NCBI GenBank assembly: GCA_028285525.1 | Contig: JANQOZ010000122.1 | Span: 1-64,000, forward strand | Reading direction: 5' to 3' | Source: Lysobacterales bacterium | GTDB lineage: Bacteria > Pseudomonadota > Gammaproteobacteria > Xanthomonadales > SZUA-38 | Length of the DNA: 64,000 nucleotides | In this document: piece after piece, positions 1 to 6,760 of the stretch | Numbering within the stretch: position 1 is the first letter of the stretch | Layout of the letters: each line of letters starts with the position of its first letter | Program-made: the position numbers and the translations under genes | Notes under the pieces: generated by a model | Told to the model about the DNA's origin: nothing | What the model saw: the letters and a program-made list of their open reading frames with translations, nothing else | Databases searched by the model: none

Positions 1-68
1 AGCAGTACATGTGGCTGCATCGCCGCTTCAAGAATCGCCCGCCCGGAGAGCCGTCCGTCTACGACTAG
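1..68 (+). CDS. lpxL: Lipid A biosynthesis acyltransferase, C-terminal fragment
   Basis: Only the last 21 codons lie in the window, read in frame from base 3 to the TAG at 66-68. The residues QYMWLHRRFKNRP followed by a short Pro/Gly-rich tail match the conserved end of the LpxL/HtrB lauroyl acyltransferase family, which acylates Kdo2-lipid IVA at the inner membrane. The catalytic HX4D motif lies outside the window, so LpxL, LpxM and LpxP cannot be told apart. The TAG stop lies inside the left terminus of the repeat element at 65-336, so the natural C-terminus may have been reset by that insertion. Confidence 0.72.
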   Translation, partial: QYMWLHRRFKNRPPGEPSVYD

Positions 69-336
69 TGCCCTGTTTGGCAAGTTCGTTGCGTTTCAGT
101 GCCCCGTTGGGCGCCAAGAACAAGGCGCATCGCGCCGCCAATGGCCGTAGCCCTTGGCAAGCGATGCAACGCGGTTATTGGCGCCCAAGGGGGCTCCCTC
201 CGGGCGCGTCCCACAAGGCCTGGAGCGGCGTTGCGAGCCTTGGCCAGGGAGCCACCCTGGCCGGCGGCTCGCGCCTAACTCCAGGGCCTTGTGGACACGC
301 GCTGAAATACAACGAACTTTCCAAACAGGGCACTAG
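65..336. mobile_element. MITE-like inverted-repeat element, 272 bp, no transposase
   Basis: The element begins CTAGTGCCCTGTTTGG at 65 and ends CCAAACAGGGCACTAG at 336. The two termini are imperfect inverted repeats extending about 36 bp, through AAGTTCGTT and a TTTCAG core. Inside there are two further palindromes: a perfect 11-bp pair TTGGGCGCCAA at 107-117 and TTGGCGCCCAA at 178-188, and an imperfect long one over roughly 210-296, with CCACAAGG...CCTTGTGG at its ends. No plausible protein is encoded; the open frames across it are by-products of high GC. It sits between two convergent genes and supplies the TAG stop of each. A collapsed relative is at 6108-6145. Size, termini and lack of coding capacity suggest a non-autonomous mobile repeat; the family is not one I can name. 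Confidence 0.6.
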
Positions 337-623
337 CGGAGCAGCTGTTCGTTCGGCAGCAGCGGCGTTTTGGGCGGCGGCGGCTGAAAGTAGTAGCCGA
401 CATCCGCCAGCGCCTCCCGAACCTTCCGCGGATCTGAGCGCGCCAGCTTGCGGTCGGGACCGAGGCTGAGCGCCATGACCAGAGACAGCTCACCGAGCTG
501 CTCCAGCAGCGCCGCAGGCACCTGGGCAAAATCATCCTCCAGCGGTACGAACAGGTAGCCCTCGCTGAGTTTTTTCCCGGCATAGACGAAGCATTCGACG
601 GATTCATCGTCGGGTTTGGTCAT
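333..623 (-). CDS. ycgL: YcgL domain-containing protein
   Basis: A 96-residue protein with the hallmarks of the YcgL family, small soluble proteins of gammaproteobacteria with no settled function: an N-terminal CFVYAGKK strand, the YLFVPLEDDFAQVP segment, a hydrophobic LxMALSLGPDRKLAR stretch, and GYYFQPPPP near the C-terminus. Length is normal for the family. It overlaps the upstream lipocalin-like gene by four bases (ATGA), so the two are probably co-translated. Its TAG stop is formed by the terminal CTAG of the repeat element at 65-336, so the last residues after the PPPP run may not be ancestral. Confidence 0.85.
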   Translation of the reverse strand: MTKPDDESVECFVYAGKKLSEGYLFVPLEDDFAQVPAALLEQLGELSLVMALSLGPDRKLARSDPRKVREALADVGYYFQPPPPKTPLLPNEQLLR

Positions 624-6107: not shown

Positions 6108-6145
6108 CTAGTGTCCTGTAACGAACTTTCCAAACAGGACACTAG
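6108..6145. repeat. Collapsed copy of the 65-336 repeat element
   Basis: Perfect 11-bp inverted arms (CTAGTGTCCTG at 6108-6118 and CAGGACACTAG at 6135-6145) flank a 16-base spacer. The right part, AACGAACTTTCCAAACAGG plus CACTAG-like end, is nearly identical to the right end of the element at 65-336. The left arm matches the first eleven bases of that element's left end. It therefore looks like a deletion product that kept about 12 bases of the left terminus and 27 of the right. It lies between the hydrolase stop and the ECF sigma gene, where the hairpin could influence transcription. Confidence 0.6.
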
Positions 6146-6181: not shown

Positions 6182-6760
6182 ATGTCGAGCCAAAGCCCCG
6201 TTGCGCCGGGAGAGGTCACTCAGCTACTGCAGGCCCAGGCTAAGGGCGGCGAGGCGGCACTCAATCACGTGGTGTCGCTGCTGTACGACGAGCTTAAAAA
6301 ACTGGCCCAGTCTCAGCTCCGGCGCTCGGGCGTTCGCAGCGAACTGCAGACCACCTCGCTGGTCCACGAAGCCTTCGAAAAGCTGTCGGCATCCAGCAGC
6401 GCTCACTTCCGAAATCGCGGACACTTCTTTGCCGTCGCCTGCCGGGTGATGCGTCAGATAGTGATCGATACCTGGCGGGCCCGGATGGCGTCGAAGCGCG
6501 GTGGTGGACTGCAGGTGGAATCGCTGCACAGCAATCTGCTGGCCGACCTGAATGATCCGCAGCGGGTGCTCCGTCTGGACGAGGCGCTCAATCAGCTGGA
6601 GCAAGACAACGAAGAGCTCGCCGAGATCATCGACCTTTCCTGCTTCGGCGGCTTCAGCAGCGCGCAGATTGCCGAACTTCGCGGCACCAGCGACCGGACG
6701 GTCCAGCGACAGCTCAAGCGGGCTCGCGCCTGGGTAAGCCATATCCTGGAAAACGCCTGA
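6182..6760 (+). CDS. ECF-type RNA polymerase sigma factor
   Basis: A 192-residue sigma factor. Region 2 spans VVSLLYDELKKLAQSQLRR through HFRNRGHFFAVACRVMRQIVIDTWRAR. Region 4 is the C-terminal helix-turn-helix SAQIAELRGTSDRTVQRQLKRARAW. The acidic linker and the phrase TSLVHEAFEKL are characteristic of the ECF subgroup found beside Ser/Thr kinase genes (TIGR02999-like). Its TGA overlaps the ATG of the kinase gene (TGATG). No anti-sigma gene is adjacent, so activity is probably controlled by the linked kinase; phosphorylation is inference. Confidence 0.85.
   Translation: MSSQSPVAPGEVTQLLQAQAKGGEAALNHVVSLLYDELKKLAQSQLRRSGVRSELQTTSLVHEAFEKLSASSSAHFRNRGHFFAVACRVMRQIVIDTWRARMASKRGGGLQVESLHSNLLADLNDPQRVLRLDEALNQLEQDNEELAEIIDLSCFGGFSSAQIAELRGTSDRTVQRQLKRARAWVSHILENA

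Follow-up and report, generated by a model that had tools for sequence, protein, structure and literature searches.

A transposase-less inverted-repeat element in a Lysobacterales genome: IS630-like ends, a two-hairpin interior and probable movement in trans

The question raised by this locus is what kind of genetic unit occupies positions 65-336 of the window (the whole 64,000-nucleotide stretch of Lysobacterales DNA analysed here), and by what means it could have arrived there. A sequence-only reading had described it as an inverted-repeat element without transposase, mobilised in trans in the manner of a miniature inverted-repeat transposable element (MITE) or a REP/NEMIS-like repeat, with a collapsed second copy further along. 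It had also proposed counting copies by their termini, checking target-site duplications and looking for a transposase with matching ends. The features on which the following analysis is based are listed below.

65-336, no strand assigned: complete element, 272 bp, the flanking TA being included in the CTAG ends
65-102, plus strand: terminal inverted repeat, first end (CTAGTGCCCTGTTTGGCAAGTTCGTTG...), IS630-type by repeat search and end comparison
299-336, minus strand: terminal inverted repeat, second end, 89% complementary to the first
101-194, minus strand: hairpin module B, its core motif lying at 133-161 of the minus strand and differing from the search pattern by one mismatch
195-207, no strand assigned: linker CCCTCCGGGCGCG, a short hairpin in the predicted fold
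208-296, minus strand: hairpin module A, apparently the same module as B, inverted; boundaries approximate
6108-6145, no strand assigned: reduced copy, 38 bp, composed of 12 nt of one end and 26 nt of the other; the orthologous sister-species site is without it

The terminal repeats, first estimated at about 36 bp, were measured by an inverted-repeat search of the window as arms of 38 nt (65-102 and 299-336), both of which start with CTAGTG when read inwards. The two internal palindromes that had been noticed by eye were also recovered, one as the inverted pair 101-121/174-194 in the same search and the other as a hairpin at about 208-296 in the predicted fold. The predicted fold of either strand, calculated with RNA parameters, is one stem with two arms (-197.1 and -193.4 kcal/mol). 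The consensus arms of modules A and B both read AAGGCGCG ... GCAACGC and look like a single module present in inverted orientation. When the window was searched with CTAGTGNCCTGT, allowing at most one mismatch, four matches were obtained, namely the four ends of 65-336 and 6108-6145, against a mean of 0.52 and a largest value of 3 in 100 shuffles.

The described lack of coding capacity was borne out, since the only frames listed across 65-336, 11..469 (plus strand) and 275..607 (minus strand), extend through the repeat into the flanks on both sides. Frames from 85 related stretches were also clustered and the 25 largest clusters judged by eye; the recurring frames overlapping the element in these loci are the translated element itself, and no transposase-like frame was seen among the 25 clusters. 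A deletion derivative of an IS630 copy was considered as a candidate and rejected on the same recurring frames, judged by eye, because the interior consists of the two-hairpin core without a remnant of a transposase gene.

Copies, empty sites and reduced copies

Copies were counted in the window's own genome (G000, a draft of 125 contigs) and in a sister species (G001). The end pattern gave 12 matches in G000 and none for the reversed control, and a looser version gave 29 against 3; a blastn search of the element against its own genome found more than 20 places with near-identical copies, many of which are cut by contig ends, so that a single element split between contigs may contribute two counts, and the total of complete elements is not derivable from the draft. 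A restriction of the repeat to the two loci of the window, which had been named beforehand as a result that would speak against a mobile element, therefore did not occur. Among 41 genomes searched with the core motif at no more than three mismatches, 16 matches were found in G000, 31 in G001, 19 in G012 and 3 in G029; the other 37 genomes gave none, and the reversed control gave none in all 41. With the whole element as query, and with the first 12 candidates per genome scored, 7 of 61 genomes had a match at E 1e-5.

Insertion polymorphism between the two species was examined by joining the flanks of 13 insertions (nine from G001 and four from G000) and searching the joined sequences in both genomes. 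An orthologous site without a full element was found for 12 of the 13 (all nine of G001 and three of the four of G000), the remaining G000 insertion (L003) matching by one flank only. Eleven of the empty-site pairs were aligned, L003 and L018 being left out. The insertion point was CTA or TTA in four of these (L060, L061, L062 and L069); the empty site carried CAA in L064, GAA in L027, which is the reduced copy of the window, and no TA in L015. At L058, L063, L065 and L066, extra or differing bases were present at the insertion point, some of them resembling element ends, which may reflect excision or deletion. The left flank of L065 (query positions 841-907) also contains a palindrome, CTAAAAACCACGCTTTTTAG..., which is repeated elsewhere in G000 and G001 and represents a different repeat family.

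An exact TA on both sides was seen in four of the nine G001 insertions (L058, L060, L063 and L069), and a TA stood directly outside 38 of 49 ends of the IS630-type end class. The flanking TA and the CTA or TTA of four empty sites make a duplicated TA target likely, the exact pattern being seen in part of the insertions only.

The locus at 6108-6145 was said to keep only the two ends of the element, and this held on direct reading, by its absence (L027) at the orthologous sister-species site, and by comparison with end-only copies in a Marinobacter genome (G063), in which three pairs of ends spanning 74-78 bp have lost both hairpins (L206-L208). In the 38-bp locus the same reduction has gone further; loss of the palindromic interior during replication is the likely cause. 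This short hairpin ends 36 bp before the frame 6182-6760, which presumably encodes a factor resembling ECF-type sigma factors, and may lie within its leader; the next frame is 966 aa long and has kinase-like motifs.

Terminal sequences and candidate transposases

The ends of the element were compared with those of known insertion sequences. Two viral contigs (L202 and L203) have in common the end CTAGTGTCCTGTTTGG, or CTAGTGTCCTGTTTGGTTAGTTCATTAC in a longer reading. In L202 this end comes after a protein C-terminus, TKHAKPFRWTKSANAILASVQKAKDSL, which in a single comparison is 62% identical over 26 aa (E 5e-8) to an IS630 transposase encoded on a Marinobacter plasmid, itself scoring 301 bits to the NCBIfam IS630 model. 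Compared with the window ends, the viral-contig end matches at 22 of 26 positions, against a mean of 7.9 and a highest value of 18 in 20,000 shuffles. Given the size of the collection, a 16-base pattern by itself might be a chance occurrence, and the argument for IS630 is drawn instead from the position of the end next to an IS630 gene together with the 22/26 agreement. The 33-aa viral fragment, too short for Pfam, gave no match in a Pfam scan, and its matches to plasmids were weak (E 0.02 or worse).

A second case was provided by a Thioalkalivibrio IS630 remnant (PF13358 below the cut-off) followed by CTAGTGTCCATTAACAAAAGTTCG, which shares 22 of 26 positions with a family element of Natronospirillum and only 16-17 of 26 with the window ends. 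CTAGTG was present at both ends in 10 of 14 IS630 copies, a set from which three partial copies were left out and in which two pairs seem to be duplicates. The proposed search for a transposase with matching ends succeeded to this extent, in that IS630 ends match; its other part failed, as the IS630 transposase domain PF13358 was found in none of G000, G001 and G003, although a MITE does not need one in its own genome. Ten further element-bearing genomes likewise had no PF13358 match over the cut-off, one giving a weak partial match. The source of the enzyme may possibly lie on phages or plasmids. The end of L203 gave only chance matches to phages and four weak matches to plasmids, and the two annotated plasmid stretches viewed were without transposase; the window's end pattern had no match in contigs of the genome collection.

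Taken with the dispersed near-identical copies and the empty orthologous sites, the IS630-matching ends make it probable that the element is a MITE whose movement depends on an IS630-type transposase acting in trans, and the original MITE reading was right. Its length of 272 bp, its 38-nt repeats, the lack of a frame of its own, the dispersal of its copies and their insertion polymorphism agree with this class. An IS630-family (Tc1/mariner-like) transposase supplied in trans would recognise the terminal repeat, which in elements of the window type would consist of CTAGTG.CC, eight variable bases and AAGTTCG; it would excise the element and insert it at a TA-containing, mostly YTA, target that is usually intergenic. 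The two inverted hairpin modules would represent conserved cargo, not the remnant of a transposase gene; they would fold in single-stranded DNA and may help the element to persist or spread. The 38-bp locus would be a copy after interior loss, with the ends remaining.

The ends are of another type in part of the relatives. Marinobacter G063 frequently carries ends such as GGGAGCCTCTGATTAACTC or GGGAGCCTCTGAATAACTC (60 forward and 69 reverse matches at no more than two mismatches, with 1 and 1 for the control), and the element end GGAGCCTCTGAATAACTC agrees at 16 of 18 positions with GGAGACTCTGAATAAGTC, the end of insertion sequences of G063 and G062; the G062 transposase scores 337 bits to the NCBIfam IS5 model. 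Similarly, the Neptuniibacter elements end with GGAAGGTGCGAATAAGTC, 15 of 18 positions of which agree with GGAACATGCGATTAAGTC, the end of an insertion sequence of the DDE_Tnp_1 type (PF01609) in the same genome. PF01609 was found in three of seven element-bearing genomes tested and was absent from G000, G001 and G003. Among the plasmid matches (L199 and others), the Neptuniibacter-type end has a weak resemblance (E 3) to short sequences of numerous enterobacterial and Aeromonas plasmids, in one plasmid close to a quinolone-resistance gene.

In a tree built from the interior only, a branch with 100/100 support separated 32 rows with IS5-type ends from 28 rows with IS630-type ends and three others, the end labels of 12 rows having been assigned by hand. 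Because the interior tree separates the end types, the interior seems to have persisted through one change of ends; alternatively, a single enzyme might accept both end types.

The folded interior across genera and the competing explanations

An exact match to the core was found at 89 places, which are spread over 85 stretches of the genome collection. Among the 80 titles listed, most were Gammaproteobacteria (Marinobacter, Wenzhouxiangella, Alcanivorax, Thioalkalivibrio, Gilvimarinus, Natronospirillum and others), four were named only "Proteobacteria bacterium" and one was Nitrosomonas. The exact core pattern had no match in viral contigs, nor did two other end patterns. Clear terminal repeats were present at 56 of the 63 places lying far enough from the stretch ends; 47 of these 56 elements measured 259-274 bp and the rest 176-397 bp, with repeats of 31-36 bp in 43, and their terminal sequences differ greatly.

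Plasmid searches with whole elements gave mostly chance-level matches, with the exception of the Azotobacter chroococcum plasmid pAcX50f, which carries a family member (L201:1842-2111) with a third type of end, CTAGGGTCTGTTGACGTTTTG, and the two-hairpin layout. Several loci show unusual structures. In L205 (G012:C2:6400-7300), the second hairpin is interrupted by about 250 bp starting with GGGTGAGCC and ending with GGCTCACCC, probably another structured repeat. Two Marinobacter G063 copies (L212 and L217) have enlarged apical loops, that of L212 with an apparent tandem duplication of loop sequence, and a 1.6-kb spacing between two Marinobacter ends (L204) contained no transposase when inspected by eye.

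The strings GGGCTACGGCCATT and GGGTCTGTTGACG and topics related to the element were not found in the open-licence literature, and the element is not described in the available parts of PMC4666352, PMC4853749, PMC3733652 and PMC10969869. Through its interior the window copy belongs with a wide group of elements that this literature was not found to describe.

Conservation of the fold was evaluated in an alignment of 63 rows, comprising 51 of the 89 core places and 12 copies from G000 and G001; the other 38 places were dropped as lying near a stretch end, having a weak terminal match or falling outside a size of 255-285 bp. Three loci with the pattern on both strands (L078, L123 and L149) entered the alignment, the tree and the first wobble tests twice, and were counted once each in the final wobble test and in the count of TA outside the ends. 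The alignment contained 110 consensus pairs with 91% of cells paired; at least three Watson-Crick types occurred in 77 of the 110 and all four in 50. Invariance of the 29-nt core in module B has no value as evidence, because the search required that core; no such requirement applied to the AGGC and AACGC of module A.

G-U cells outnumbered A-C cells in module A and the reverse was true of module B, so that wobble pairs prevail in both modules, each in its own direction. Counted in the direction of each module, the final comparison gave 79 against 28 cells and 20 against 3 sequences of 26 (p 0.0005), p-values of this kind being too small because the copies are related; in 19 less related copies the figures were 56 against 23 cells and 13 against 2 sequences (p 0.007). 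The outer stem gave 31 against 25 cells and 14 against 11 sequences. Under a stricter column filter, the single-module tests were weaker, with p of 0.04 to 0.15 by sequence, and partly not significant. This pattern fits, indirectly, selection for folding of each module as a single strand, the two modules using opposite DNA strands.

Such constraint on two inverted modules would also fit a giant REPIN-like element, in which a Y1 (RAYT-type) transposase would move a pair of inverted REP-like hairpins in single-stranded form and leave no target duplication. Six Y1 matches, five of them over the family cut-off, exist in G000, and the target duplication is not exact in five of the nine G001 insertions. 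However, no significant similarity to the element was found within about 1.5 kb of the six Y1 genes (the best match being 13 nt, E 0.06), and the ends correspond to those of IS630 or IS5 elements, whose transposases are of the DDE type; we consider this explanation improbable, and the REP alternative of the first description was not upheld. Two of the Y1 genes (L163 and L164) lie on one contig, G000:C67, where a repeat, CCTGGCACTTGAA, unrelated to the element, surrounds L163.

A structured non-coding RNA gene, spread by duplication and acting through its transcripts, would account for the strong covariation and for a wobble asymmetry present in the hairpins and not in the outer stem, but the asymmetry indicates opposite strands for the two modules. 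The neighbouring genes of 57 loci, defined by frame length only, were convergent in 14, divergent in 16 and in tandem in 15 + 12, with two places perhaps inside a frame; this spread over all orientations points neither to an RNA nor to a terminator. No Rfam match over the gathering score was obtained in the window or in eight related loci; two microRNA matches below that score in L149 (E 0.56 and 0.71) were regarded as chance. An RNA gene seems slightly less probable still than the REPIN-like element. A bidirectional terminator or mRNA-end structure held in place by selection, which the strong intergenic hairpins might suggest, is very improbable, since the sister species differ in position at 12 of the 13 insertions, the empty sites contradict such a reading, and the convergent context expected of it occurs in only 14 of the 57 loci.

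Within the preferred reading of a MITE moved in trans, a broader proposal can be put forward tentatively, with somewhat less than even confidence: the folded core, rather than the ends, would be the unit under selection. It would belong to a two-module parasite, old in gammaproteobacteria, that folds as single-stranded DNA and whose transposase was exchanged one or more times (between IS630-type and IS5-type ends) with no change of interior, size or arrangement of parts; each module would act in folded, single-stranded form, one on each DNA strand. Bacterial MITEs are usually seen as pieces left over from one insertion sequence, with the ends as their defining feature. In this family the ends vary between groups and the interior is common, which makes testable the idea of a non-coding element with a function of its own that recruits different transposases.

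Relation to known systems

The element resembles IS630 family insertion sequences in its CTAGTG end, the TA outside it and the agreement with the viral-contig end, and differs from them in having neither a transposase gene nor an interior trace of one. The likeness to IS5 family insertion sequences concerns the ends of the Marinobacter-type relatives, which approach GGAGACTCTGAATAAGTC in G063, whereas the window element has IS630-type ends and its genome, like G001 and G003, is without PF01609. With REP sequences and REPINs mobilised by RAYT transposases it has in common imperfect hairpins in inverted pairs, but its modules are longer, its long terminal repeats match those of DDE-type elements, and no Y1 gene adjoins it in G000.

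A parallel in general form is found in bacterial MITEs such as Correia/NEMIS and Nezha, which are linked to IS630. Like these, the element falls within 70-300 bp, has terminal inverted repeats, and is non-coding, mostly intergenic and foldable. Such MITEs are listed in PMC3733652 and PMC10969869. Judged by their descriptions, what sets the window family apart is a two-module fold conserved across genera behind two unrelated types of end.
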